From NCBI GenBank assembly GCA_017615635.1, contig JAFZZR010000002.1, forward strand, positions 1 to 64,000: a stretch of 64,000 nt of DNA. Direction: 5' to 3'. Of the stretch, positions 3,749 to 20,954 are shown one piece after another. The DNA comes from Lentisphaeria bacterium. Its GTDB lineage: Bacteria; Verrucomicrobiota; Lentisphaeria; Victivallales; UBA1829. Each line of letters opens with the position of its first letter. Position 1 is the stretch's first letter. Position numbers and translations under genes: made by a program. The notes below the pieces were generated by a model. It was not told the DNA's origin, searched no databases, and saw only the letters and a program-made list of their open reading frames with translations.

Positions 3749-3769
3749 GGGCGATCCGCCCTCGGTTTT
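3748..3769 (+). terminator. weak intrinsic terminator after the GH42-like gene
   Basis: AGGGCG and CGCCCT form a 6-bp stem with a 3-nt loop, followed by CGGTTTT. The stem overlaps the last base of the stop codon at 3746-3748. The short stem and T run suggest partial termination. Confidence 0.45.
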
Positions 3770-3794
3770 GCCTGACCGATTTTTGTCCGTCCGC

Positions 3795-3823
3795 TTGAAA
3801 AAACGTCCGAATGCCGCTAATGT
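3795..3823 (+). promoter_or_regulatory. sigma70-type promoter for the MFS gene
   Basis: TTGAAA (3795-3800) and TAATGT (3818-3823) are separated by exactly 17 bp. The predicted transcript would begin near 3830, which rules out the in-frame ATG at 3824 and supports the start at 3875. Confidence 0.6.
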
Positions 3824-3874
3824 ATGGGGTTGTACAAAAGAGACGACCGAGAGACAGATCGGAGAACGGATAAA

Positions 3875-5080
3875 ATGGATGATAGACCGAAGATGAGTCA
3901 GGCAACCTGCAAAGAGGAAAACGCTCCGGCGGTCCGTACGCTGGTGCGATACCGTCTGGCGGCTTCGGCCTTCTACTTCATCCAGGGATTCGTCGTGACC
4001 TGCTGGGTCAGCCGTCTGCCGGACATCAAGGAGCGCCTTTCTCTTTCGGACGGCGTGCTGGGGCTGGTCCTGCTGGCGCCTCCGGCGGGACAGCTGGCGG
4101 CCATGGCTCTCTCCGGATGGCTGGTCCGGCGTTTCGGCAGCTTCCGGATCTTGTGCATCGCGGGCCTTCTTCTGCCCTGCTGGCTGCCGGTGCTTGGTCT
4201 GGTTTCCGCACGGGCCGGGCTGATCGCCGCACTTGTCTTTTTCGGCATGGCGACCAATCTCTCCAACATCTCCGTGAACACGCAGTGCGTCGGGATCGAG
4301 CATCTGTACGGAAAAAGCATCATGGCCACGTTCCACGGGATATGGAGCCTGGGCGGGATCGGCGCCATCCTGCTGAGTTCCTTCTGCGCCGTGCGCGGTA
4401 TTTCGCCCGCCGTGAATTTCCTTTTCTGCTCCGCCCTGATGATCCTCCTCTATCTCGCCAACTTCCGGCGTCTCCTCCCGCAGGACCGCCGGACGGCCGG
4501 AGACGGGGCGAACAAGGTCCGTCTCGCCTCGCTGCTGACCGATTCGCGGCTGTGGATCCTGGGGATCATTTCCCTGGGCTGTCTGGGATGCGAGGGCGTG
4601 ATGAACAACTGGATCGCCATCTTCTTCCAGAAATTCGTGACCGCAAAAGCCGAATTCATCCGCCTGGGCCTCTTCACCTATATGCTCTCCATCACATGCT
4701 GCCGGTTCACCGCCGACCGCTTCGTCCGCAAATGGGGCGGGCGGACCGTGATCCAGATTGCCGGGTGCCTGATCCTGGCGGGCATTTCTCTGATCGTCCT
4801 GATCCCCTCCCTGTTCACCGCCGCCGCAGGCTGCATCCTGACGGGCATGGGAACTTCGGTCATCGTGCCCGTCTGCTACGGGATCGCGGGAAAATACGAG
4901 TCCGTCCCGGTGGCGGTATCCATCACCATGGTGGCGACGGTCGGGTTCCTGGGATTCCTCTTCATGCCGGCGGCGGTGGGCGTCCTGTCCGAACTGGCCG
5001 GACTGAAAACGGCGCTGTTCCTGACGGGGCTCGTCTCATGCGCCGCCGCCCAGCTGATCTGGAAGGCGGGGAAGGCTTGA
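3875..5080 (+). CDS. MFS transporter, YbjJ-like
   Basis: A 401-residue inner-membrane transporter with about 12 hydrophobic helices. The segment NTQCVGIEHLYGKSIMATFH near the middle of the N-terminal half matches the YbjJ-type branch of the major facilitator superfamily, which has an Asn-rich helix and then a conserved H-G-x-W-S-L-G motif. GGAG at 3861-3864 supports the ATG at 3875 over the earlier in-frame ATG at 3824. The gene lies between a secreted GH42-like protein and a LacI-type regulator, so uptake or efflux of a sugar or sugar derivative is likely. The substrate cannot be read from the sequence. Confidence 0.8.
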   Translation: MDDRPKMSQATCKEENAPAVRTLVRYRLAASAFYFIQGFVVTCWVSRLPDIKERLSLSDGVLGLVLLAPPAGQLAAMALSGWLVRRFGSFRILCIAGLLLPCWLPVLGLVSARAGLIAALVFFGMATNLSNISVNTQCVGIEHLYGKSIMATFHGIWSLGGIGAILLSSFCAVRGISPAVNFLFCSALMILLYLANFRRLLPQDRRTAGDGANKVRLASLLTDSRLWILGIISLGCLGCEGVMNNWIAIFFQKFVTAKAEFIRLGLFTYMLSITCCRFTADRFVRKWGGRTVIQIAGCLILAGISLIVLIPSLFTAAAGCILTGMGTSVIVPVCYGIAGKYESVPVAVSITMVATVGFLGFLFMPAAVGVLSELAGLKTALFLTGLVSCAAAQLIWKAGKA

Positions 5081-5146
5081 AGGACGGATCCTGCATCGCT
5101 GCATAGGTCCGTTTCGGAAAAAAGGGAAAAAAAATAAAAAAGGTGC

Positions 5147-5174
5147 TTGATTTTCATGGAAAGGATGTTATCTT
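5147..5174 (+). promoter_or_regulatory. promoter for the LacI-family gene
   Basis: TTGATT (5147-5152) and TATCTT (5169-5174) are 16 bp apart. The imperfect inverted pair GTTATC / GGTAAC overlapping the -10 region could be an autoregulatory operator. The -35 to -10 stretch resembles the promoter at 20990-21017. Confidence 0.5.
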
Positions 5175-5223
5175 GAGAGAGAGGTAACACGAGTAACCAA
5201 TCGACCTCCGGGGACTGCGCAAC

Positions 5224-6201
5224 ATGATTCGAGGCAAAGATATCGCAGCTCTGGTCGGCGTTTCCCGTCCGGCCGTAACGGCTGTCCTCAACGGCAGCCG
5301 TCCCAACTGCGTTTCCAAAGAGAAGCGCGAGGCCATTCTCAGGATCGCATCCGAACATCAGTACCGGCCCAATCAGGCCGCCGTGGCCCTCAAAACCGGG
5401 AAAAGCCGCATGATCGGCGTGGTGATGCCGCCCTGGGGAAATCCCCATATCGCCGAACTCTGCATGGGGATCCAGCGCTGCCTGGCGGCCAGAAATTATA
5501 CCTCCGTCTTCACCATCGACAACAATTACAATCCCGTGCCCGGCAATCTGGATCAGTTCCTTTCCCTGCGTGTGGCGGGGATCATCACCGTGGCGTCCTC
5601 GCTGCTGCCGGACGATATCGGAGTTCCCGTGGTGAGCTATTATCACAACGATCCCCGCTTCGACAGCGTCTGTCCGGATCTCGCACGGGATGCCCGTCTG
5701 ATCGTGGAACATTTGAAGGAGTACGGACACAAAAACTTCGGATATCTCGGACTGCACGGGGACAAACGGATCCGCTATCTGGCCGCGGAGGCCGCCCGGT
5801 GCGGACTCGACTTCCCCGAGCGCTGGCAAAGCTGGAATCCGGGCGGAAAAACGGAAGGAACGGATCATTTTTCCCGGCTTCTGAAGGTAAACAAGGGGCG
5901 GGATCTGCCGGGTGCCCTGGTGGTGCTCAGCGACAACGTCGCTTTTCACGCATATCAGAGCATCCGCCGGCACAAGTTCCGCATTCCGGAAGATTTCAGC
6001 ATTGTCAGCCACGACAACATCGCCTACTGCGGCTGCCTTTCCCCGGCTCTGACAAGCCTGAGTTTCGGCTCGCCCGACGAGGTCGCCGGCGAAATGGTCC
6101 GTCTTCTGCTGGAACGGATAAAAAATCCCGGCAAGCCCCGGGAAGTGACGCGACTGAAGTCGGTGCTGATCGAACGGGAAAGCGTTGCAAATAAGGTATG
6201 A
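5224..6201 (+). CDS. LacI-family transcriptional regulator
   Basis: A 325-residue cytoplasmic DNA-binding repressor-type protein. Residues 3-50 form the LacI helix-turn-helix and hinge (KDIAALVGVSRPAVTAVLNG, then a YRPNQAAVALKTGKS hinge). Residues 60-320 are a periplasmic-binding-protein-like sensor domain for a sugar effector. It has its own promoter and sits 144 bp after the MFS gene. The neighbouring transporter, the GH42-like gene or the P2-MarC genes are the likely targets. The ribosome-binding site before the ATG at 5224 is poor. Its stop codon lies inside the heptamer repeat array upstream of P2. Confidence 0.92.
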   Translation: MIRGKDIAALVGVSRPAVTAVLNGSRPNCVSKEKREAILRIASEHQYRPNQAAVALKTGKSRMIGVVMPPWGNPHIAELCMGIQRCLAARNYTSVFTIDNNYNPVPGNLDQFLSLRVAGIITVASSLLPDDIGVPVVSYYHNDPRFDSVCPDLARDARLIVEHLKEYGHKNFGYLGLHGDKRIRYLAAEAARCGLDFPERWQSWNPGGKTEGTDHFSRLLKVNKGRDLPGALVVLSDNVAFHAYQSIRRHKFRIPEDFSIVSHDNIAYCGCLSPALTSLSFGSPDEVAGEMVRLLLERIKNPGKPREVTRLKSVLIERESVANKV

Positions 6202-6232
6202 GAGATGAGAGATGAAAGATGAGAGATGAAAC
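6198..6232. repeat. heptanucleotide tandem repeat, ATGARAN x5
   Basis: Five 7-bp units, ATGAGAG, ATGAGAG, ATGAAAG, ATGAGAG and ATGAAAC, overlap the LacI stop codon and lie upstream of P2. They match the ATGAGGT array upstream of P1 in period and sequence. Confidence 0.85.
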
Positions 6233-6253
6233 GGTATATAAAGGAGAGGTTTT

Positions 6254-6286
6254 TCCTATCCGGCCTATATGTCCTATTCAGCCTAT
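6254..6286. repeat. 9-bp-period array, KCCTAT unit x4
   Basis: TCCTAT, GCCTAT, TCCTAT and GCCTAT begin at 6254, 6263, 6272 and 6281. The array corresponds to 66-98 before P1, including the shared CCG spacer. Confidence 0.75.
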
Positions 6287-6322
6287 TTTTACATAAAAAA
6301 CTTTGAGGAAAGGAAAGAGAAG

Positions 6323-7063
6323 ATGAGAAAGAAAAGGTTTACTCTGATCGAGCTTTTGGTGGTCATCGCCATCATCGCCATCCTGTCTGGCATGCTGCTT
6401 CCGTCGCTGGGGTCGGCGAAAGCGAAAGCCCAGTCCGTAATCTGCCTCAACAATCAGAAGCAGACAGGCATGGGATTTCTCCAGTACACCAATGACAACG
6501 ATGAAAAACTCTGGTATTATGATCAAAACTCGGACAGGACCTATCTCGTCATTCTGGGCGGACTGGCCAAGTACAAGTACACAAACGAATACTCGCAGAG
6601 GTATATCGATCACCGGAGCGCATTCTGCCCGCTGACGGCGGATGACTCCGCGACCGGGGACGATCTTGTCGTGTTGAAGTTCCGCACCTATGCTTCTCAT
6701 TCGACGCACAAACATTACGGGACCAAGGACGAGTGGCGAGAGGAACTCGACACCGGAAGCGGCAAAAAACGGTTTTATCTCAAGCTCAAGGCGATCAAGG
6801 GAGCCGATCTGAAGCTGGCCTGGGGGCTGGCGGATTCCCGGGCCAGTCTGATCAAGCCGAATCAGGGATATTTCAAGATCTACATGACCGCGGACGGACA
6901 AATGTTTGCGGCACGCCACAGCGATCGTGTGAATATGTGGTATTTCGACGGGCACGGCGCCGCGGAAACGCCGGCCGACGTGGCCAAACTGTACAAGGAT
7001 ATTTCCGGGCTGACCACGTCCCGCATCTACATCGGAGACAGAGGCATGTGGGCCGAATTTTGA
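6323..7063 (+). CDS. prepilin-type H-x9-DG family protein (P2)
   Basis: A 246-residue pseudopilin. The start is the ATG at 6323, directly before [11 protein letters not shown], with purine-rich GAGGAAAGG upstream; the in-frame ATG at 6269 would add an 18-residue N-terminal extension. The residue before the presumed cleavage site is Arg. The C-terminus has an exact H-x9-DG motif (His in ARHSDRV, then YFDGHG). MarC begins 44 bp later on the same strand, followed by a barrel enzyme. Confidence 0.9.
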   Translation: MRKKRFTLIELLVVIAIIAILSGMLLPSLGSAKAKAQSVICLNNQKQTGMGFLQYTNDNDEKLWYYDQNSDRTYLVILGGLAKYKYTNEYSQRYIDHRSAFCPLTADDSATGDDLVVLKFRTYASHSTHKHYGTKDEWREELDTGSGKKRFYLKLKAIKGADLKLAWGLADSRASLIKPNQGYFKIYMTADGQMFAARHSDRVNMWYFDGHGAAETPADVAKLYKDISGLTTSRIYIGDRGMWAEF

Positions 7064-7107
7064 TTCCTTCCGGACGCCTGATCCCTCGCTGTACAAGAGG
7101 ATGAAGC

Positions 7108-7701
7108 ATGAATTTTCAGACAGTACTATCGGTGACGCTTCTGTTTTTGATGGTGATGGACCCTTTGGGGAATCTCCCGTTTTTCGTCCTCATCCTGAAA
7201 CGGAAATCCGCGGAGGAATACCGTCGCATCATCTTTCGCGAGTCTCTGTTTGCTCTTGCGGCGATGCTCGTCTCGCTGTTCGCAGGCGGCGTGTTTCTGA
7301 AGCTCCTGCACCTCTCCGAAGACAAACTGGGAGTCGCAGGCGGATTGATCCTCCTCATCATCGGGCTGAAAATGGTTTTTTCATCCTTTACGGAAACCAA
7401 TGTCTCGGAGGGAAAGGAACCCTATATTGTGCCGCTCGCCATTCCCCTGATCTGCGGCCCCGGTCTGATCGCGATGCTGATCACGCAGTCGGAACAAAAG
7501 GCGGAAAGCGTTATCGCACTGCTGGTTGCCTGGATGATCCAATTGCTGATTCTTCTCGTAGGGAAAACCATATCCGAAAAACTCGGGAAGAAACCGTTGG
7601 ACACGCTGGAATCTCTGATGGGGCTGCTGCTTTCCGTCGTGGCGGCAGGCATGATCATCGACAGCATCAATCAGATTTACGGGATCGGTCCGACAAAATG
7701 A
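7108..7701 (+). CDS. MarC-family (UPF0056) integral membrane protein
   Basis: A 197-residue protein with about six transmembrane helices across its length and the MarC/YhgN-family sequences DPLGNLPFF (residues 18-26) and PLAIPLICGPGLIA (about 111-124). GAGGA about 7 nt upstream supports the ATG at 7108. The family's transport function is not established; older links to antibiotic resistance have been disputed. Its place between P2 and a secreted sugar-enzyme gene is probably operonic but not obviously functional. Confidence 0.88.
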   Translation: MNFQTVLSVTLLFLMVMDPLGNLPFFVLILKRKSAEEYRRIIFRESLFALAAMLVSLFAGGVFLKLLHLSEDKLGVAGGLILLIIGLKMVFSSFTETNVSEGKEPYIVPLAIPLICGPGLIAMLITQSEQKAESVIALLVAWMIQLLILLVGKTISEKLGKKPLDTLESLMGLLLSVVAAGMIIDSINQIYGIGPTK

Positions 7702-7780
7702 AACGAATATAAAACAAAAAGGTTTTTGACGGACAAATCAAAAAACTTTTGAAGAAGGCTGAAAGATAATGGAGGATCTC

Positions 7781-10690
7781 ATGAACCTGAAAAAATCGAT
7801 TCTCGCAGGACTGCTCCTCTGTGCAGCAGGAGGGATGATCGCCGCCGCTGAAAACAAGCAGAGACAGGCACAATCCGCGCCGGAAACGGAGGTCTCCCTG
7901 ATCCGGAACCGCGATTTCTCCGAGATGGGCCTGAACGGCATACCGAAGTACTGGTCGTTCAGTTCGATCTCCGAGGTAAGAGCGGCGGACGATGCCGAGG
8001 GAGAATGTCTCGTCCTGACCTGCCTTCCGAACGGCAAGGTCGCGAACGCGGTGCAGCACGGGATCAAACTTGAGGCGAATAAGGATTATATCCTGACCGC
8101 ATACTGCAAAGGACCCGAGGGGAGTTTCTTCCGCGCGTATCTGGAGGCGAGCAAACCGACATGGCAGACCCGGTCGTCCGCGTGGCAGACATGCAACGGA
8201 AAATGGCAGAAGGTTTCATTCCTGATCAAATTCGAAGATTTTTCATCCGCGCCCTATCTGGTCCTCTCGGTGAAGGGAACCGGGGACGTATTCATCCGAG
8301 GCCTCGAACTCGCGGACGGATCTTTTCCCCTCAACGGGGATTTCACGAACGGAACGGAAAACTGGACGGTCCAAGGTGGCTCAATCATTCGTATCGGGGC
8401 GAACGGGGGAAATGTTCTGGAGCTGAACAGCGCCTCGAAACCGGCCAGTGCCGTGCAGACCGGGATCCCCGTCAAAAAGGGACAGTACTACGAATTGAGC
8501 TGGCGGGTCTGCGGCGGCACAGACAAGACCCACCGGGATTCCCAGAACGCCGTCTGGTTCCGCGTTTCCGCGATCATGGACGGCAAGCGTCTTTCCCCTG
8601 AAACATGGCAGGATTGCTTCAATGCGTGGCAGACGAAGTCGGTTCTTTTCGTCGCGCCCAAAAACGGAAATATCGACATCCTGCTGGAGGCGCAGTCTCC
8701 GTACTGCGTGGATTTTGACAAGATCAAACTGACGGCGGTGAAGCCGCCGGAGCCTCCGCTGGTCCTGCTGCCGAATCCGCCCTTCAATTTCCGGAACGGG
8801 GTCTATTCCTCCAACCGTCATGTGACGAAGGCAAAGTACACGATCCTCAACAACGTGGTCAAGGGTGTTGCGGCCTATGAAATCAGCTTCAACGGCGGCC
8901 GGTTCCGGATCCCCGTGGAACCGTCTGCGACCTTCGAGCTGGATCTTCCTTCGAAGCCGGGCTCGTATCCGATCCGGACGGATGCCGTGGATGCCGGAGG
9001 CAAGGTCCTTGCTTCGGTCACGCTCCCGCTCGAAGTGAATCCGCCGGCCGCCCGGGAAGTCTCGTTCCGCGAAGACCACGTCATGCTGATCGACGGGAAG
9101 CCGTTCTTCCCCCTGGGCGTCTGGTCCGTGGGCGGCGGTAAGAGCAATCAGGAAAAGGCGAAACGGATCGCCGAGGCGGGATTCAATATCGCGATGGCCG
9201 GATCCGCCGGCGCCGACAGGATCGACGATTATGCCGAACACGGCATGATGGTCATGCTTTCCGTGCTGGAGAAACTGCCTCAATTTAAGGATGCGGAGCA
9301 TTTTGCCAGATGGGATATGAAATACCGCAAAACGCTGCAGAAGTATCAGGCACATCCCTCTCTGGTCGCCTATTTCTCCATCGATGAACCCGCATGGATC
9401 GGCGCATCGAGCAAAGATATTCAGGCCGCCTGCGAATATATCCGGAAGATCGATCCGTATCGGCCGATCATGCTCAACGAGGCGCCCCGCGGCGAGATCC
9501 CGGCGATCCGTCATTTTGCCGTTGCCGCGGATGTCTACGGCGTGGATATCTACCCCGTACCGGAACCCAATCCGCATTCCGGGCTCGACGATAAATACAT
9601 GACCTGCGTCGGGAAATACGTCGACCGGAGCCGCGAGGTCGTCTACGATCGGAAACCGATCTGGATGACCCTTCAGGCGTTCGCCTGGAACAGACTCACG
9701 CGAAGCGGCAAGGAACAGCCGAACCATCCGACGGAGCACCAGAACCGGTTCATGGCCTACAACGCCATTGCCCACGGCGCCACCGGTCTTTTCTGGTGGG
9801 GCATCTGCCGCGGCAAGGAGGAAAACTGGGATTTCGTCGTGGAGCTCGGCAAAACCGTTTGGGAATTGAGAAAAATGAGCGCGATCCTCGTCGCGGAGAC
9901 CGTACGGCCCGCGGCCATGAAGTCTTCTGTGCCGGAAGTGAATATCCTGCACAAAAAACTGGACGGCACCGACTGGTTTATCGCCGTCAACGAAAGCAAT
10001 AAGGATGTGACGGCTGAACTCAGAGGCGCGGGAGACAAACCGCTCAACGTCTTCTTCGAAAACCGCAAAGTCGATCCCGCCGCCGGCGTTTTCCAGGATT
10101 CTTTCAAGGCGTATGACGTCCATATCTACAGCGCGGCGGAGAAATTGCCGCCTATGCTGGAAATACCGGAAACGCACCGCGTCACGCCGCGCCTCGATCT
10201 TCCCGAAGACTACCGGCACACCAACTGGATCTGGTATCCGGGAAAAAACAAAACCCTCTGGCACAAAACGTGGTTCAAGCGGGAAATCACGCTGGACTCA
10301 CAGCCGCAGAAGGCTCTTTTCTTCTGCGCCGGAGATGATTGCTTTCAGCTCTTTGTCAACAATCAGCTGGTCATGGAAGGATTCACCTGGAATCAACTCC
10401 GATTCCGCGACCTGGCGCCGTTTTTCAAACCCGGCAAAAACACGATCCTCATCAAGGCCGCGGATGGCGGCGCCATTCCCTGCGGTCTGCTTTACGCCGG
10501 GATCATCACGGAAAAGAACGGGAACGTGATCAAGGTCATGGCCGATTCCGAAACAATGGCTTCCGAGGACGGCAAGAACTGGGTTCCCGCAGAGGTGATC
10601 TGCAAATTCGGAACCAGTCCCTGGGGCACCATGGGCAATCCGGAACCCGTCAACGTGGAAGAACTCGGGACGGAAGAATTTCCATTCTGA
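7781..10690 (+). CDS. secreted multidomain glycoside hydrolase-like protein (GH-A barrel with CBM-like domains)
   Basis: A 969-residue protein. The start is the ATG at 7781 behind GGAGG (7771-7775). A Sec signal peptide (1-23) precedes two CenC-like jelly-roll regions (about 28-175 and 180-325) and an Ig-like linker (about 330-410). A TIM-barrel domain follows (about 420-720). A C-terminal beta-sandwich (about 800-935) resembles the accessory domain of alpha-L-rhamnosidases. In the barrel, Glu536 in SIDEP is a good acid/base candidate. The region where a nucleophile would be expected reads TLQAFAW with Gln632. The lipoprotein gene at 39995-42133 is a paralogue with the same Gln. No GH family can be named with confidence. 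Confidence 0.72.
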   Translation: MNLKKSILAGLLLCAAGGMIAAAENKQRQAQSAPETEVSLIRNRDFSEMGLNGIPKYWSFSSISEVRAADDAEGECLVLTCLPNGKVANAVQHGIKLEANKDYILTAYCKGPEGSFFRAYLEASKPTWQTRSSAWQTCNGKWQKVSFLIKFEDFSSAPYLVLSVKGTGDVFIRGLELADGSFPLNGDFTNGTENWTVQGGSIIRIGANGGNVLELNSASKPASAVQTGIPVKKGQYYELSWRVCGGTDKTHRDSQNAVWFRVSAIMDGKRLSPETWQDCFNAWQTKSVLFVAPKNGNIDILLEAQSPYCVDFDKIKLTAVKPPEPPLVLLPNPPFNFRNGVYSSNRHVTKAKYTILNNVVKGVAAYEISFNGGRFRIPVEPSATFELDLPSKPGSYPIRTDAVDAGGKVLASVTLPLEVNPPAAREVSFREDHVMLIDGKPFFPLGVWSVGGGKSNQEKAKRIAEAGFNIAMAGSAGADRIDDYAEHGMMVMLSVLEKLPQFKDAEHFARWDMKYRKTLQKYQAHPSLVAYFSIDEPAWIGASSKDIQAACEYIRKIDPYRPIMLNEAPRGEIPAIRHFAVAADVYGVDIYPVPEPNPHSGLDDKYMTCVGKYVDRSREVVYDRKPIWMTLQAFAWNRLTRSGKEQPNHPTEHQNRFMAYNAIAHGATGLFWWGICRGKEENWDFVVELGKTVWELRKMSAILVAETVRPAAMKSSVPEVNILHKKLDGTDWFIAVNESNKDVTAELRGAGDKPLNVFFENRKVDPAAGVFQDSFKAYDVHIYSAAEKLPPMLEIPETHRVTPRLDLPEDYRHTNWIWYPGKNKTLWHKTWFKREITLDSQPQKALFFCAGDDCFQLFVNNQLVMEGFTWNQLRFRDLAPFFKPGKNTILIKAADGGAIPCGLLYAGIITEKNGNVIKVMADSETMASEDGKNWVPAEVICKFGTSPWGTMGNPEPVNVEELGTEEFPF

Positions 10691-11546: not shown

Positions 11547-14500
11547 ATGAAAAAAATGATTCTTCTGATCCCCGCAATGCTTGCGGTCTCCGCTCTGTCC
11601 GCGGAAACGATTCCGCTGTCCGAATGGAACCTTCCGGAAACCTCAAAGAAGACCAATACCGCCATCGAGGCCGTTTTCGGCGGGGAGAAATACGGAACAC
11701 TGTTCTGGGGTCCGTTCCGAAAGGCCGGCAATGCAAAGATCTGGCAGCTCACGGTGAAGCTGAACGGCTCGGGGGAGATCCAGGGCTCCCTGGGCTGCTA
11801 CAGCGAGGACAAAAAACGGTTTCTCACGAGGCATCCCTTTTCGTTCGAAACGAAAACGGTCCATGCGAGGGAGAAGAGCCGGGATCTGACCTGGTATCTC
11901 ACGCTGCCGAAAGATGCGGGCGCCGTCGGCTGGATCCGGCCGGTGCTCCGGATCGTTTCCGGAAAATTCACCATACATCAAATACAAATCGAGGAATTGG
12001 ATCAGATGCCGCCAAGAAAAAATTATCTTGACACGACCTGCCGGATGCCGGGGGAAGTCCTTCCGGATTACACCGAACCCAACCTGTTTGCCGGATTCAA
12101 GGGCCGGGATGGAGGTGAGCCCCTGGGGATCCAGCGGGAACTGAAGCTCGCTCTTGCGGAAAACGCGTCCAGCGTCTCGCTTGTTTCGGATCCGATCCGG
12201 GTGGAGCCCGGGGATAAATACATTCTGACGGGACTGTATCACAGCGCCGATCTTCATTTCGGGAATGCGGGCGGACTGGCCGTCCTGACCGAAGAAAAGG
12301 CGAAAAACTGGACCGGAGATCTGGAAGCGTTCCGTCCGTACAGTCCTCTTGCCGTGACGGAACTGGTCAACCGCAGGGAAGGCGAATGGGCGCGCAGGAC
12401 TATTCAGTATCAGGTCCCGGAAGGCGTGAAAAGCGTCCGGATCGGCGTCTTTCTGCGCGGTGATCCGGCCTCGGTCCGCTGGCGGAGCCTCTATTTCGGA
12501 CTGGGTCCGTGGCAGCAGGACACACGCTCGCAGGATTTCGATCTCTCCTGGCACTACGAAAAGAACACGGAGCCGCTGCCGGAGGAGGAAGTCAATGCCG
12601 TTCTGGCATCCCGTCCCGAGGCCTCGGCGGAGATATTGCCGGGCAACTCCCCGCGGGTACTGCTGAACGGGAACAAAGAGATACCGGTCATCTATTTCGG
12701 AGACGCCATCGATGCGGCGAGGAACAAGACGGCGGCGTTTCAGGAGGCGGGGATCGACCTGCAGATCATCCCCATTTTCCGGAAAGGGTATTACTGGACG
12801 GGATACCGGCAATACAATTTTGAGGCGATCGACCGGACCATCATGGAAAACATCCGGCGCAATCCGAGGGGAAATTTCATCATCGGGATCAGTGTCACGC
12901 CCTATCCGAGCTGGGCGGAAGAGTTTCCCGGCGAAACGGCCGTCAACCGCGTCGGGGCGCAGCAGACCAGCCGGGACGGACGGAAGAATCTGCCGTGCTA
13001 CTACAGCCGGGTATATCAGGAGCAGGTGCTGGAGTACATCCGTCAGGCGATCGAGCACATGCGTCAGCAGCCCTATTTCAAGGCCATTGCCGGATTCCAT
13101 ATCATCGGCAACGAGGACGGCCAGTTCTATTATCAGGTCAAGTACGGCCGGTATATGGATGAAGCCTATTCCCCCGCCGCGCGGGAACCCTTCCGCGCCT
13201 TCCTCCGGAAAAAATACGGAAACGATCCCGAAGCCCTGAAAAAATCCTGGAAACGGGAGGACGTCACCTTCGAGAACGCCGAACCGCCGCGCACGCCCCG
13301 TCCCCTGGACACCTTCTTCTGGGACCGCTCGGCGGATATGGCCTACTGGGATGTTTCCATCTTCATGAACGAAGCCATGGGCGAGTTCGCCGAGGCCATG
13401 TGCCAAGCAGCCAAGGAGGCCGCGGGCAAAAAGGTCATCGCTGTCATGTGGTGGGGACGCGGAGGCGAACAGTTCGTGCAGCCTCATTTCGCCCAGACTC
13501 ACGTGATCCTGCCGGCCGCAGGCATGGACCTGATGGGCGGTCAGCCCGGATATTTCGGAGAACGGAACAACGGCCTGACCAGCTACTATCCGTGGATTCC
13601 CGACTCCCTGCGCCTCCACGGCAAGATCCCCATGATCGAGGCCGATTTCCGGACCTGGACGACCGTATACAAATCCCTTCAGCAGGACAGCCATGTCGTC
13701 CGCTACTGGACGCCGGATTCGTTCCGGAACGCTCTGCTCCGGGAGGCCGGACGGCTCTTCAGCGTGGGCGGCGGGCTCTGGTTCTACGATATGACCGCCG
13801 GATGGTTCGACGATCCGAAGCTGATGGAGTCCGCGGCTCTTGTCAAGCGGATCGCCGCGAAGCTGGAGAAGAACGATACGCCCTTCTCCCCCGCGGAGAT
13901 CGTCTTTGTCGCCGATGAAGACAATTTCCTGGCGACCACGGAACAGCTTCACTGCTGGAACGGGCCGAACTTCCATTCCGTGCGCAAGACCCAGCGGGCC
14001 ATGATGCGGTCCGGCCTGAAATACGACTTTCTGTATCTTTCCGACCTCATTGCGCAGGAATCGACCCATTACAAGGTCTTCTGCTTCCTCAATCTGTATC
14101 ATGTCACGCCCGAAATCGAGGCCTGGCTGGACACCCTCCGCCGGGACGGCAGAACGCTGGTCTTCGTATACGCCCCGGGATACAGCACCGACAAAGGTCT
14201 GGACGTTGACAACATCAGCCGGATCACCGGGATCCGGACCGAAAAGATCGAAGCCGGGTCTCAGAAGTCCGTCTTTGTCGATTCTCCCTGCACCCAGGGC
14301 CTTGCCGGAAAAAACGCCGGACTCGAAAATGCTCTGGGCCTGGTCCGGTTCCGTATCGATGATCCCGATGCCGTGCCGATCTGCACGTACACGGATGGCA
14401 GCGGGGTTTCCGGAGCCATGAAAAAATTCCCGGATTACACTGTTATTTATCTGGCTCTGCCTTCGCCGTTCACTCCGGCATTTCTCTCGCGGCTCGCCGG

Positions 14501-14729
14501 TTACGCCGGGATCCCGGTGTTCAACCGGACGCCCGGAGATATGTTCGTGCACCGGCGGGACGACCTCATGGTGCTTCACGGTGTGGAGGCGAATACCAAC
14601 ATTCTCTGCCCGCCGCAAGGCAAAAAACTCTACGATATGACGACCGGCGAAGAGCTTCCCGCGAACAGCGATTCGACGGTCGAAATCACTCTTTCACCCG
14701 GTGAAACCCGTATTTTGGAGTGCCGCTGA
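11547..14729 (+). CDS. secreted GH42-like beta-galactosidase-type protein
   Basis: A 1060-residue paralogue of the 878-3748 protein. A Sec signal peptide (1-19) is followed by two beta-sandwich regions (about 20-150 and 165-335). A clan GH-A barrel (about 375-790), a Rossmann-like trimerisation region (about 800-960) and a short C-terminal domain complete it. Both predicted catalytic carboxylates are present: Glu523 in GNEDGQF (acid/base position) and Glu698 in MIEADFR (nucleophile position). It probably cleaves a terminal galactoside outside the cytoplasm, but GH42 membership is judged by eye and the substrate is open. Its stop codon is followed at once by a relic of a GH110 gene start. Confidence 0.78.
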   Translation: MKKMILLIPAMLAVSALSAETIPLSEWNLPETSKKTNTAIEAVFGGEKYGTLFWGPFRKAGNAKIWQLTVKLNGSGEIQGSLGCYSEDKKRFLTRHPFSFETKTVHAREKSRDLTWYLTLPKDAGAVGWIRPVLRIVSGKFTIHQIQIEELDQMPPRKNYLDTTCRMPGEVLPDYTEPNLFAGFKGRDGGEPLGIQRELKLALAENASSVSLVSDPIRVEPGDKYILTGLYHSADLHFGNAGGLAVLTEEKAKNWTGDLEAFRPYSPLAVTELVNRREGEWARRTIQYQVPEGVKSVRIGVFLRGDPASVRWRSLYFGLGPWQQDTRSQDFDLSWHYEKNTEPLPEEEVNAVLASRPEASAEILPGNSPRVLLNGNKEIPVIYFGDAIDAARNKTAAFQEAGIDLQIIPIFRKGYYWTGYRQYNFEAIDRTIMENIRRNPRGNFIIGISVTPYPSWAEEFPGETAVNRVGAQQTSRDGRKNLPCYYSRVYQEQVLEYIRQAIEHMRQQPYFKAIAGFHIIGNEDGQFYYQVKYGRYMDEAYSPAAREPFRAFLRKKYGNDPEALKKSWKREDVTFENAEPPRTPRPLDTFFWDRSADMAYWDVSIFMNEAMGEFAEAMCQAAKEAAGKKVIAVMWWGRGGEQFVQPHFAQTHVILPAAGMDLMGGQPGYFGERNNGLTSYYPWIPDSLRLHGKIPMIEADFRTWTTVYKSLQQDSHVVRYWTPDSFRNALLREAGRLFSVGGGLWFYDMTAGWFDDPKLMESAALVKRIAAKLEKNDTPFSPAEIVFVADEDNFLATTEQLHCWNGPNFHSVRKTQRAMMRSGLKYDFLYLSDLIAQESTHYKVFCFLNLYHVTPEIEAWLDTLRRDGRTLVFVYAPGYSTDKGLDVDNISRITGIRTEKIEAGSQKSVFVDSPCTQGLAGKNAGLENALGLVRFRIDDPDAVPICTYTDGSGVSGAMKKFPDYTVIYLALPSPFTPAFLSRLAGYAGIPVFNRTPGDMFVHRRDDLMVLHGVEANTNILCPPQGKKLYDMTTGEELPANSDSTVEITLSPGETRILECR

Positions 14730-14854
14730 CCATGATCTGCTTCACCGATTTTCAGTCTGGAGGCAACGCCTCGACCGCACCTGCACCGTTCTTCAAGTTT
14801 GAAAACGGATGGGAAAAGCCGCCGTGCGAAGAAAAGAAAGGTTCCGTTTCATGA
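14717..14854 (+). pseudogene. relic of a GH110 gene 5' end (RBS plus first ~20 codons)
   Basis: An open frame at 14732-14854 encodes 40 residues starting MICFTDFQSGGNASTAPAP. The intact GH110 gene at 19287 starts MTSFTDF and then has NASTALAP at the same place. Similarity extends upstream through the ribosome-binding site and stop-codon junction: GGAGT, 10 nt, then ATG in both, with the shared string GCTGACCATGA. After about 20 codons the match ends and the frame stops, overlapping the ATGATG of the next gene. It looks like the leftover start of a lost or recombined GH110 copy. It might still act as a coupling ORF for the next gene. Confidence 0.7.
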
Positions 14855-17800
14855 TGAAATCATTACGTCCGATTGCCGTATGTTTTGCCGCTGCGCTCAC
14901 GCTGGGCGCCGCCGAGATCCGGAATCCCGGTTTCGAACAGGGCCGGAAGTCTTTTGAGGGCGTAGGGGACTGGTGGTTTTCCACGGCGGATTCCTGCGAT
15001 TTCGACACGGAAACCGTTCATTCCGGGAAACGGGCCATCCGCCTTTCGGTAAACGATTCCACCAGCCAGAAAGCCAGTCAGCACTGGTCGCGCTACGCAT
15101 ACCTCACCGGACGGGTGAAAGACGTCAGGCCGGACACCATCTACACGATCCGCTGTTTTGTCAGGACGGATATGACGGCGGGCCAGGCGGGTATTGCCGT
15201 CTGCCTGCTGAAAGAGAAGATGACCATGCCGGACCGGATCCCGGTGAAATTCCTCCCCGTCCGGAAGACCGTGGACTGGACGGAGCTGGTTTACAGCTTC
15301 AAGACGGGGAAGGATACTACGGGCATAGCCCTCTATTGCGCCGTGGAAAACTTCACCGGCAGCGCCTGGTTCGATGATTTCAGCATCCGCGAGGGGATCG
15401 ACATTCCGGCGGTCCCGGAGTCGTCGGACTGGGATCAGGCGCTTGTCCTGAATGAGTTTATCCTGATCGGAGACGCCGCGCTCGAGAGAAAGCAGCCGAA
15501 GGCACAGACGGAGATCCGCCTTCTCTCCTGCGGGGACAAGCTGATGATCTGCGGCACCTGTTTCGAGCCCGACATGAAAAATCTGAAAGCCTCTGTATCC
15601 GGGCACGATGATCGGGGAGATGTCTGCAAAGACGATTGTGTGGAGCTGTTCCTCGATGCCCAGCGCAGCCGGTCGTCGTATTATCATCTCATTTTCAACG
15701 CAAACGGCGCATTGTACGATGCCTTCGGAAAAGACGCCTCGTGGAGTCCCCGCGATATTCAGCTGACGACGGCTAAAGAGTCGGACCGCTGGACCTTCGA
15801 ACTGATTCTTCCGTACACGGCCCTGGGCTACGGACAGGTGGAGGCCGCCCTCCCGGACAAACAGATGGCGCTCTCCGTATTCCGGAGTCGGAAGACCGTG
15901 TCGCCTTCGGAAGTTTCCGGCTGGCAGCCATGGTTCCAGCGATCCAATTTCCATGCGCCCATGCTGTTTCAGCCCATTCTGGCCGGTTCCGGAACGAAGG
16001 GGGAACAGGTGAATTCCATATATCGCGGGCATATGGGGAACTTCATGCGTCTTCCGCTGGCCTGGAAAGTACCGGATCCCCTGTATGAGGAACTGATGAC
16101 GGACGAACCCATGTTTCCGGAAACGGGCTCGATCCTCAATATCGGCTTCCGCGGATCCGATATCACGCCCAGGGAAACGGCCTTTGCTCTTCAGCATGGC
16201 ATGAGGAAACACTACGCGGAGACCAGCGCGCTCAAAAACGAGATGCGGAGCGTCTACAATATGATCACTCTTCATCGGGAGGACCGAGCGACCTGGGACC
16301 GGATACGGAAGTATGATCAGCGGATCGGGCTTATGCCGATGGTCCAGTGGGGCGGCGCATACTACGGATACGATTTCCGGTCCGATGCTCCGAAATTCAA
16401 GTTCTACTCGGGGGCATACTTTTATCCGGATTCCCGTGTGCGCGAGGGATTCGAAAAACATGTACTGGCGCTTTTCGAAAGCACGAAGGACGTAGTCGAT
16501 GAAATCACGCTGGGGCATGAAGGCCGTTACCTGTATTTTGCGCGGTACAATCAGGTCCGCGAAACCTACATGAAAAACGATCCGGCCGCCTGGAAAGCCA
16601 TGGAAGATCAGGCAAAGAAGGAGTTCGGACACGGCACGATCGGTTTCCCCGAATCGTACGAATCCGCCACACCGACGGAACGCATGGTCTACCAGAGATT
16701 CGTGTTTTCGGAATACAACAAGGGAATCCGGAAACTGGCTTCGGAACTCCGGAAGATCAAGCCCGGGATCCGGCTCATTTCGGAGCTTGACCCGGACGGC
16801 ATGAAGCCCTATTTTTACGAACAGATACCCGGAACATACGACTTCATCTGCCAGCAGATGCTCTGGGGGAACGGCGCTAACCGGCAGAGCGTCGCCTTCA
16901 ACTGCAAGTTCCTGGGGGATATTGCCGAAACGCCGGTCCGGGGCGGCCCCCACATCGAACACTACTTCGTCTCGCTGAACCCGGAGGAGACCAACGAGGT
17001 GATCTCCAGCGTGTTCCGCGTGGGCGGGGAATCTCTTCAACTGTGGCTCAACGACTGGTTCGGCAACACCCTGGGCGATTATTACGGTGCGCCCGAACGA
17101 TTCCACGAGATCCGCAGTCTCTGCAAACATATCGCCGCCATGCGCAAGCTCAAGTTCCCGGAACCGGACTCCGCCATCCTCTACTCCAATATCAATCAGA
17201 CGGCCAGCTGGGTGAAGGTCGGCGGGATCGGCGGCGGATATGAGGAGGCATTCACCGTCCTCGGACCGCGCGTTCGTTCCTGGTTCAAATTCATCAGCGA
17301 CACGCAGATGATGCTCGGACACATCGACTGCGCCCGGTTCAAGGTCCTGTATGATCCCGGTTCGCCGTATTTCGAGGATGACGCCTACCGGAAACTGGTT
17401 GAGTATGTGGAGAACGGAGGAACCCTTGTTGCGGCCGATCCGCGGAATTACTCGCTCCGGACCGACGGTTCGGCACGGGACACCTCGAAACTGCTCGGGG
17501 TGACGATTGGGGAAAAACCGGCGAGTCCGGCCGCGGGCGCAATAAAACTCCGGGAAAATCCGCAGTTCCCCGAACTCTCCGGAATCGCCGATGCCGCTGT
17601 CCTTCCCGCCAGCGGTGCGGCGAGCCTGATTCTGCAGCCCGGCACCGCGATCCTGGGCTCATATCCCGACGGCTCTCCCGCGATCGTCCTTAATAAATAT
17701 GGAAAGGGACAGGTCATCACCTTTGCGGCTTCGCCGTTCACCGGCACCCTCTTCAGTTCCGCCCCCTGGTGGAAATTCTTCCGTGCCCTCCAGCAGGATC

Positions 17801-18426
17801 TGGGCTGTGCGGTGGACCGCGATATCTGGCGGTTCCGTTTCCCCCGGGCGGCGGCGCCTCCGCCTCCGCAGGTCCCGGACGGCATGAACTGTCTCACAGG
17901 GAACTCCTGGTACTATGAGTGCGATGTGCCTGTGGAAGGGCCGAATGTCGCGATTCCCTATGCCGTTTCCTACGAAAACGAGCCTGACCTCATTCCGGAT
18001 AATGACCGGAAAGATAAGCTCTTCAATCGGAAACAGTCCATGAACGCCAGAATCGCCGCAAACCTTAAGGACGGTATCCTCCCCTGGGTTGTGGCCTGGA
18101 AGAAGAGCGGCGAGACCGCTGTGAAACTGGAGTTCGCGAGAGATGTTTCCGTCCGGAAAGTCCGGCTCTGGGCAAGCGGCGACATCCCGGAAATCGAATT
18201 CGGCCGGCTCGTCTCGGGCACATACCGGAAACTGGGCTCGGCTTTGGCTCCCGTTTCGGAAAAAGGCGATGTCCGGGAGATCGTGATCGACATTCCGCCC
18301 GCCTCCGGCAGAGACTTCATCCTGAAGTTCCGGAAGACAACGGGAGAGCCCTTTTATCTCGCCGAGCTGGAACTCTGGGGCGATACGGAAATCCAACGTA
18401 CGGTGCAAGCCGATTCGAAACCATAA
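14851..18426 (+). CDS. secreted GH42-like multidomain protein with CBM9-type domain
   Basis: A 1191-residue protein. The signal peptide (1-20) starts at the MM of 14851/14854, after an AAAGAAAGG ribosome-binding site. Domains in order: a CenC-like region (about 22-180), a CBM9/DOMON-like domain (about 195-385), and a GH-A barrel (about 440-790). A glutamine-amidotransferase-like region (about 800-960; [17 protein letters not shown]) and a C-terminal discoidin-like sandwich (about 1040-1180) follow. Glu557 in GHEGRYLY and Glu703 in PHIEHYF are plausible catalytic residues. The frame overlaps the GH110 relic by 4 nt. It is the second enzyme of the P3 cluster. Substrate unknown. Confidence 0.72.
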
Positions 18427-18448: not shown

Positions 18449-19180
18449 ATGAAAACGAAAGAAACACGTTTTACCCTCATTGAACTGCTGGTCGTCATTG
18501 CCATCATCGCGATCCTGGCGGGCATGCTGCTGCCTGCACTGAGCAAGGCCAAGGGATCGGCAAACATCATTCAGTGCGTCAACAATGAAAGACAGCTCGG
18601 GCTGGGCGTTTTTGCGTATCTGGATGCCAACAACGACTTCTATTTCCCGTTTAACATGATGAAGGAATCCTGGGGCTACGGCCTGGTCAACAGACACAGC
18701 GATGTCTGGCTCGGCCAGAAAAGGGACAGCATGAACCTGATCGATTATTCCGTCTGTTTCTGCCCGGCCTCCAAAGCCTCCATGGCCGAATGGCAGGCAA
18801 CATCCACCTTTTATACGGATTACGGCTACAACTACAGCATCCTCTCCATGAAAAAGAAAACCTGTCCGCTGGAAAGACTTACGCACTGCACTAAACCATC
18901 TGCCCAGTATGTGTTCATGGATTCCAGAAAAACGGTCGCGGAAGAAGACGGCAAATCGAAGGTATACGCTAAATCGGGAGGCTCGGACACGAACTTCGCG
19001 GGGATCCCCGATGCCATCCGCCACGGCGGAAAGGTAAATATCCTTCATGCGGACGGGCATGTGGAATCGACGCCGGTCCGGGACCGGGCGGATCCATACT
19101 CGACTCTGGGAATGGGGGACGACTATAAGCGGATCAGTTCGAACTGGTCCTGGAACCGTTTCTACAACTGCAGCAAATGA
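18449..19180 (+). CDS. prepilin-type H-x9-DG family protein (P4)
   Basis: A 243-residue pseudopilin, 22 bp downstream of the preceding enzyme gene. [11 protein letters not shown] gives Arg before the presumed cleavage site. It has an exact H-x9-DG motif ([16 protein letters not shown]). It could close the P3 cluster or open the GH110 cluster; the short gap upstream argues for co-transcription with the former. Confidence 0.9.
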
Positions 19181-19218: not shown

Positions 19219-19284
19219 ATGACGATTTCATTCAGCAGACGGGGAGGGGCAGACGCCCCCCGTTTTTCAAAGGAGTATTGCTGA
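19219..19284 (+). CDS. possible 21-codon leader ORF before GH110
   Basis: ATG at 19219, preceded by GGAGA, opens a 21-codon frame (MTISFSRRGG...SKEYC) that stops at 19284, two bases before the GH110 ATG. The frame runs through a GC-rich hairpin with a T run (19239-19267). Translational coupling or attenuation is possible. No homologue is recognised and it may not be translated. Confidence 0.3.
   Translation: MTISFSRRGGADAPRFSKEYC
19239..19267 (+). terminator. terminator- or attenuator-like hairpin upstream of GH110
   Basis: ACGGGGAGGGGC pairs imperfectly, with a 3-nt bulge, to GCCCCCCGT across an AGAC loop. It is followed by five T. It lies between P4 and the GH110 ribosome-binding site. 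Confidence 0.4.
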
Positions 19285-19286
19285 CC

Positions 19287-20954
19287 ATGACCAGCTTTAC
19301 CGATTTTCTGCACGACAACAAAAACGCCTCAACCGCGCTGGCGCCGGCCATCCGGGCCGCCGCGGAAGGAGACCGGATCCTCTATTTTCCGGCAGGTGAA
19401 TACCATTTTTATCCGGAAGGATGCCGGGGAAAGTTCTGTTACTTCTCCAACAACGACGAAGGGGTCAAGACCATCGCCCTGCTGCTGGAGGATCTGGATG
19501 ACTTCACCGTGCGCGGCGAGAACGCTTTGCTGATCTTCCACGGGCGGATCTCCCCGCTCTGCGCCTTCAACTGCCGGAACATCACGGTGGAAGGACTGCG
19601 GATCGACTTCGAAGACTCGTTTGTTTCGGACGCCGATCTGGTGAAACGGGAAAACGGCGTGGCGTGGTTCCGTTTCTTCGGGAAATACCGCGTGGAAGAC
19701 GGAAAACTCGTCTTCACAGGTGATTTTTTCGACAATCTGAGCGGACGACTTCCGTTTTATCCCTACAACCGGGAAAGACGGGAACTTCCGCCCGATTTCC
19801 GCGTTATTTCGGTGAAAAACCGCGGCATCCGGTTCCGGGACGGTCTGGTGGGCGTGGAGGACCGCTTTGCCGATGCGAAAACCGACGCCTTCATGGTCAA
19901 GCACGAAATGAGACTTTGCCCGGGCATGGTGTTCGACGGCTGCGAAAACGTTCTGGTCCGGAACGTATTTCTTCACCACGCCGCGGGCATGGGCCTGCTG
20001 ATCCAGAACACGCAGGACTGCCGCGTGGACGGTTTGATCGTGGAACCCCGGGGCAGACGGGCGGCCGTCTCCGACGATGCGCTCCACATTACCGACTGCC
20101 GCGGGAAGATCCGGATCGAAAACTGCCGTCTGGCCGGAACGCTGGACGACTCCATCAACGTGCACGGCGTGTTCCGCAAGCTGAAATGCCGGATCCCCGG
20201 CGGAAAGATGTATTATCTGGAGGCCGGACACTACCAGCAGATGGGCGTATTCAACGTCAAGCCCGGCGATACCATGAGGCTGTTCGACCGGAAAAGCGGC
20301 CGTCCGACCGGAGATATCCGTCTGGATTCCGTCCGGCCGATCACCCGGGCGTTCGTCATTGTGGATTTCGATGAATCGAAGCTCCCGGAAGGATTCGTGC
20401 AGGGCGATCCGGCGCTGATCCTGGACACTATGGCGGAGCTGGATGTGGTCAACACCGAATGCCGCTCGATGAACGGACGCGGCGTGCTGGCCTCCGGCAT
20501 GAAGAAGGTCCGTATCTCCGGCTGTCATTTCCATACTGCCGGATCCGGGGTCTTCATCTCCGGCGACTGGAGCTTCTGGTACGAGTCGGGCCCGGTGGAA
20601 GAAGCGGTCATAGAAAATAACTTCTTCGACAACTGCAACTACGGGATCCACGGCGCCACGCAGGAGCCCATGGCGGTCTTTCCGGAACTGGCCGCGCTTA
20701 CGGAGGATTACTTCTATCACGGAACGATCCGGGTGCGGAACAACCGGTTCCGCTGTGCTCCCCGTCCGCTGGTTTCCATGATGTCGGTAACCGAGGCCGA
20801 AGTCACCGGCAACGTGTTCGAGCCGGATGATACATATCCCTTCGTCCCCTGCGCCAAACCAGGATACCATTTCACGAAGCCGGATTCTCCGGCGGCCGCC
20901 TTCCTGCATTGCGGAAAGGTCATCGAAAAGGAGAATCCCGGATTCCCTTCCTGA
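19287..20954 (+). CDS. GH110-type alpha-1,3-galactosidase (right-handed beta-helix)
   Basis: A 555-residue parallel beta-helix protein. Recognisable GH110 landmarks: FPAGEYHFYP near residue 35, FHGRISPLCAF near 90, HITDCRGKIRI near 270, DDSINVHG near 290 and WYESGPVEEAVIENNFF near 435. GH110 enzymes of gut Bacteroides remove alpha-1,3-linked galactose (blood group B or linear alpha-Gal) with inversion. The start is the ATG at 19287, 10 nt after AGGAGT; the in-frame TTG at 19278 is less likely. Unlike its neighbours, it shows no signal peptide, so it may act in the cytoplasm on imported oligosaccharide. A relic copy of its 5' end sits at 14717-14854. Confidence 0.82.
   Translation: MTSFTDFLHDNKNASTALAPAIRAAAEGDRILYFPAGEYHFYPEGCRGKFCYFSNNDEGVKTIALLLEDLDDFTVRGENALLIFHGRISPLCAFNCRNITVEGLRIDFEDSFVSDADLVKRENGVAWFRFFGKYRVEDGKLVFTGDFFDNLSGRLPFYPYNRERRELPPDFRVISVKNRGIRFRDGLVGVEDRFADAKTDAFMVKHEMRLCPGMVFDGCENVLVRNVFLHHAAGMGLLIQNTQDCRVDGLIVEPRGRRAAVSDDALHITDCRGKIRIENCRLAGTLDDSINVHGVFRKLKCRIPGGKMYYLEAGHYQQMGVFNVKPGDTMRLFDRKSGRPTGDIRLDSVRPITRAFVIVDFDESKLPEGFVQGDPALILDTMAELDVVNTECRSMNGRGVLASGMKKVRISGCHFHTAGSGVFISGDWSFWYESGPVEEAVIENNFFDNCNYGIHGATQEPMAVFPELAALTEDYFYHGTIRVRNNRFRCAPRPLVSMMSVTEAEVTGNVFEPDDTYPFVPCAKPGYHFTKPDSPAAAFLHCGKVIEKENPGFPS

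Follow-up and report, generated by a model that had tools for sequence, protein, structure and literature searches.

A GH110-start-like open frame as a likely scar of gene loss in a Lentisphaeria carbohydrate-active gene cluster

Sequence comparison confirms that a 40-codon open frame in the window, a 64,000-nucleotide stretch of a Lentisphaeria genome, begins with ~20 codons homologous to those that open a GH110 gene further downstream in the same cluster. This frame, referred to here as the relic, most probably remains from the copying and loss of a gene: the homology at its start is real and its peptide finds no good counterpart in 60 other genomes, which makes a scar the best reading. We assign a probability of about 0.5 to a more specific history, in which an old GH110 paralog stood behind a GH42-like gene and was mostly deleted, leaving the relic. 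The history of the locus is resolved in part, and the scar is ordinary in kind. No title among the papers listed in our literature searches concerns this locus.

Layout of the cluster

The overall arrangement on the forward strand is a GH42-like gene, the 40-codon frame, a large gene (g2), a pilin-like gene and GH110. The host assembly (G000) is a fragmented draft; it comprises 204 contigs, with a completeness of 88.7% and a contamination of 4.45%. The GH42-like gene (11547..14729; 1060 aa) matches Pfam PF02449 at E = 1.1e-8 and has orthologs of 71, 66 and 65% identity in the genomes G105, G095 and G113, respectively. The relic (14732..14854) fills the space between this gene and g2, starting two bases past the GH42 stop and ending over the ATGATG of g2. 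Its GH110-start-like part of ~20 codons (14732..14791), delimited by DNA, start-context, profile and codon comparisons, is followed by a tail (14792..14854) that carries AAAGG, a Shine-Dalgarno-like site for g2, and whose TGA overlaps the g2 start. The g2 gene (14851..18426) encodes a large GH42M/CBM-like protein that is probably secreted, as judged from its N-terminus. The earlier note placed the relic between two GH42-like genes, which holds for the gene at 11547; g2 itself is weakly GH42-like, its match to the trimerisation domain (GH42M, E = 2.2e-5) and that to CBM9_2 (E = 7e-4) both falling below the Pfam cut-off, and it has no match in the PDB at E 0.01.

Downstream of g2, the pilin-like gene (18449..19180) has a prepilin N-terminus and an H-X9-DG C-terminus. 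Pilin-like genes with prepilin N-termini recur along the window, at 6269, 10725 and 18449, with further matches near 137, 31401, 38029, 42964 and 50014; some of them stand directly before large carbohydrate-active genes. The order regulator (which we take to be of the LacI type), pilin-like gene and GH42 is found in relatives. Between the pilin-like gene and GH110, directly 5′ of the GH110 ribosome-binding site, a pattern match alone identifies a terminator-like hairpin with a T-run (19246..19267) that could limit read-through into GH110; the scanned region holds 14 terminator-like sites against 10.3 expected. The GH110 gene (19287..20954; 555 aa) begins MTSFTDFLHDNKNASTALAPAI and is firmly assigned by its matches to the GH110 structures 7jw4 (E = 3.6e-50) and 7jwf (1.8e-49) in the PDB and to the GLAA-B beta-barrel PF23764 (29.3 bits, cut-off 28).

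Homology of the relic to GH110 starts

Aligned by codon with one hand-placed gap, the relic and the GH110 start share 12 of 20 residues and differ at 20 of 60 bases. The local DNA alignment of the two start regions scores 44, compared with a maximum of 29 among 2514 other 170-bp pieces of the window (overlapping, both strands). All 3379 start contexts of the window, defined as ATG, GTG or TTG followed by an open frame of at least 15 codons, were scored against the GH110 start. The two in-frame starts of GH110 itself reach 112 and 97, against 47 and 40 for those of the relic (14732 and 14720); no unrelated context exceeds 28, which places the relic directly after the GH110 gene. With the cluster gene left out, the relic has a mean score of 45.7 against seven GH110 starts from other contigs or genomes, where the mean over all 3379 contexts is 13.1 (sd 2.2). 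These comparisons bear out the earlier proposal that about 20 codons match the GH110 start, with a similarity far above that of unrelated starts, and the abrupt end it described is also found, the homology running out at about codon 19–20 (~14788).

A profile built from eight intact GH110 starts, the relic being left out, was searched in 137 genomes of the order with E-values calculated per genome. It recovers its eight source genes at E = 1.2e-12 or lower, followed by the relic at 2.8e-4. The following match (E = 3.7e-4) falls on a stretch in the interior of an unrelated protein of 279 aa, so that the profile test by itself is not conclusive. This stretch (G105:C2:49006-49053) was considered as a second relic and rejected because of its position inside the protein, away from any start.

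The relic resembles one subclass of GH110. Among 28 GH110 homologs, the eight belonging to the subclass of the cluster gene score 29–64 against the relic, and the other 20 score 15–33, the top two at 33 and 25. In hand-gapped alignments the relic differs from the seven other subclass genes at 22 to 31 of 60 bases, and comparisons between intact members give 16 to 35 differences in 60–63 bases. Free gapped DNA alignment gives 43 of 60 identical bases with the cluster GH110 and 33 to 42 with the others. The nearest gene is the cluster's own GH110, though not decisively. As the distance from the relic to GH110 is about that among intact genes, the relic is no recent copy. Its differences from the cluster gene are distributed over codon positions 1, 2 and 3 as 5, 7 and 8, with a mild preference for the third, and the divergence pattern fits an old paralog with some relaxed evolution rather than a recent partial copy. 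The first ~20 residues of the relic are like those of this subclass of GH110 alpha-1,3-galactosidases (CAZy), but the relic has neither catalytic domain nor beta-helix and is no enzyme.

No further GH110 sequence, from the body or the C-terminus, was found in the relic in any frame. Compared with the GH110 body in six readings, the tail gives no match, 24–94% of 600 random pieces at least equalling its mean score depending on the reading; an origin from the body in another frame or strand was rejected on these scores. By eye the tail has an ..EN.GF..-like pattern that recalls a GH110 C-terminus, as an internal in-frame deletion would leave, but it scores no better than controls, its mean score being attained by 84% of 2000 shuffles and its score by 381 of 1208 other ORF ends, and this origin was likewise discarded.

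Flanking sequences and the history of the locus

The bases in front of the relic belong to the GH42-like gene. Both the GGAG and the TGA come from its conserved last codons, ..ETRILECR*, and the segment 14717..14731, GGAGTGCCGCTGACC, comprises the GH42 3′ end and a CC spacer. The closest GH42 ortholog (L155, in G105) ends ..ctggagtgccgctga with no relic behind it; GGAG and TGA are therefore GH42's own. The ribosome-binding site, which had been counted as part of the copied GH110 start, is as such native GH42 coding sequence. Nor is the same stop-CC-ATG junction kept at both places, as had been claimed: the stop of the pilin-like gene lies at 19180, and what the TGA found at 19282-19284 closes is just a 21-codon frame that starts at 19219.

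The leader of the intact GH110, GGAGTATTGCTGACC, nevertheless resembles the GH42 end at 12 of 15 bases, a likeness that none of 1925 ATG contexts matches besides the GH110 gene itself. The pattern GGAGTNNNGCTGACCATGA occurs in the 3.7 Mb genome at two sites alone, the relic and GH110 (reversed control, 0), and none of seven other compared GH110 genes has GCTGACC at the leader position. The argument from this leader is weakened because GCTGACCATG is common by itself, with seven copies in the window (454, 14725, 19280, 47949, 56672, 58015 and 58912; 0.09 expected from dinucleotide shuffles) and 31 in the genome, where the reversed pattern occurs 9 times; the five window copies beyond the relic and GH110 lie inside longer open frames. 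The GH42-like leader may mean either that the intact GH110 formerly stood behind GH42 or that a chance likeness served as a place for template switching.

The favoured history would begin with an old GH110 paralog behind GH42 in the operon, its start two bases past the GH42 stop. Most of this paralog would then have been deleted, joining its start to the g2 leader; the intact GH110 lies downstream of g2. We infer both the former presence of a whole GH110 at this place and the order of these events. Such an old paralog accounts for the presence of a proper gene start where two operon genes meet, for the match in subclass, for the age and, in part, for the arrangement in another genome described below. 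The start-anchored similarity, far above controls, counts for it, as do the rank of the relic directly after the eight source genes in the profile search and the poor best match of the peptide in other genomes. The relic resembles the cluster's subclass and has diverged about as far as intact members have, as a separate old paralog should, and the likeness of the 15 bases before the intact GH110 to the GH42 3′ end would follow if that copy had formerly been placed behind GH42. Bacterial gene remnants and truncated pseudogenes arise by duplication and deletion. The relic resembles them in being a short piece of a gene start, out of context, with no conserved product found; it differs in being very short, still open and fitted between its neighbours by stop-CC-ATG and the ATGA overlap.

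Neighbourhoods in relatives provide both support and opposition. A g2 match at 1e-80 is present in 4 of 137 genomes, the window's own included. In one of them (G080:C8, reversed, 2835-8920; L187), a pilin-like gene, GH110 and a g2 ortholog of 49% identity stand in a row, with 36 bp between GH110 and g2. An intact GH110 directly 5′ of g2 counts partly for loss of a paralog; against it, this GH110 is of a different subclass (35% identical to the window's gene; relic score 18, at background) and G080 has no GH42 ortholog at E 1e-60. No GH110 was found at E 1e-8 at any of eight GH42-ortholog loci (L155-L161, L167), of which L157 and L159 hold ~3 and ~2 kb downstream of GH42. A second set gave 0 of 13, with a best GH110 match of E = 0.39; eight of these loci apparently repeat genomes already counted, L176 breaks off at the gene and the remaining four are distant (23–26%). 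In the loci examined no intact GH110 stands after GH42, and the one before g2 in G080 is of another subclass. These absences count against loss of a paralog, as do the missing trace of a GH110 C-terminus and the fragmented, partly contaminated draft assembly. The earlier note read the locus as a scar of gene duplication and replacement; a scar of a GH110 start stands, and duplication followed by replacement of a whole gene is not borne out by these loci.

Two other arrangements were set aside. GH110 genes occur within a few kb of distant GH42-like genes at L163 and L164 (27% and 23% identity), but at L163 the GH42-like stretch follows GH110 with two open frames between and at L164 it is on the opposite strand; neither was counted as the same arrangement. 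Pilin and GH110 were considered as an ancestral pair, as a GH110 paralog on contig C48 of the host assembly is likewise preceded by a gene of the pilin type; against this, the identity between the two pilins is only 30%, and the window has many pilin-like genes. The stretch in front of this second GH110 gene, at 6088-6280 (L093, G000:C48), has one frame that resembles the 3′ part of a lost gene (..YKFNGLNIDSDVLELN*) and is perhaps another scar.

The strongest competitor to loss of a paralog, a serious one though the less probable of the two, is that nothing more than a short fragment of ~60–90 bp around a GH110 start was copied in. Template switching or gene conversion would have set in at the GGAGTNNNGCTGA bases, where the GH42 end and the GH110 leader are similar, and would then have returned to the 3′ flank of GH42 itself. 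The absence of GH110 behind GH42 in every ortholog examined is consistent with this. So is the tail, which from 14793 matches the sequence directly behind the GH42 stop in L159, where 20 of 25 columns agree and 3 are gapped, and shares an 11-mer with L155. The L159 match starts at base 1 past the stop and the L155 match at base 2, and the GH110 likeness ends four bases before 14793. A score of 22 is reached in 2 of 8 GH42 orthologs and in 4 of 754 control post-stop regions, a likeness that fits insertion of a fragment better than loss of a paralog. However, the test was devised after the match had been noticed, the L159 and L155 matches cover different parts of the tail, and six of the eight orthologs have no match, including the next-closest, L156 and L157 (scores 16 and 14). 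The L159 gene is ~43% identical, which makes a conserved neutral spacer unlikely, and among 800 other pre-ATG pieces 3 have two such hits and 28 have at least one. The tail likeness is retained as a rival but not accepted. Insertion of g2 and the pilin-like gene with a flanking duplication of ~90 bp, and a tandem duplication ending inside GH42, are each compatible with the GH42-like bases that precede the intact GH110, which favour neither over the other; the terminator-like hairpin overlaps those bases. Neither scenario was adopted.

Possible function and meaning

The relic is probably a fragment without useful product. A role for the 40-codon frame as a functional leader or small peptide that couples translation of GH42 to that of g2 seems improbable to us. 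Its 40 open codons, the stop-CC-ATG behind GH42, the ATGA overlap with g2 and the AAAGG before g2 all suit such a role, but a short open frame and an overlap in one frame of three are expected by chance, so the overlap is no evidence of selection. The conserved 40-residue peptide in relatives that the earlier note had weighed against a scar did not appear: in 61 genomes the search returned the relic's own match and then, among the 60 others, a best E of 0.0756. The frame was not seen behind GH42 in the orthologs examined. The relic may relay ribosomes from GH42 to g2 through TGA-CC-ATG and the ATGA overlap; g2 has its own AAAGG site, and we found no sign of selection on the frame. It is quite unlikely that the remnant was kept as a translational bridge, the start of a lost enzyme gene being reused. 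Chance likeness between two gene starts, which the shortness of the match, the frequency of GCTGACCATG and the unrelated protein in the profile search would allow, is the least credible reading of all given the rank of the relic next to GH110, its DNA score above every control, and its position at a start codon in the same cluster as GH110.

The relic opens no new mechanism, and it cautions that a 40-codon open frame between tightly packed genes need not be a gene. Read as the likely scar of a lost GH110 gene, it is a small trace of reshuffling in the polysaccharide-degradation clusters of gut Lentisphaeria.
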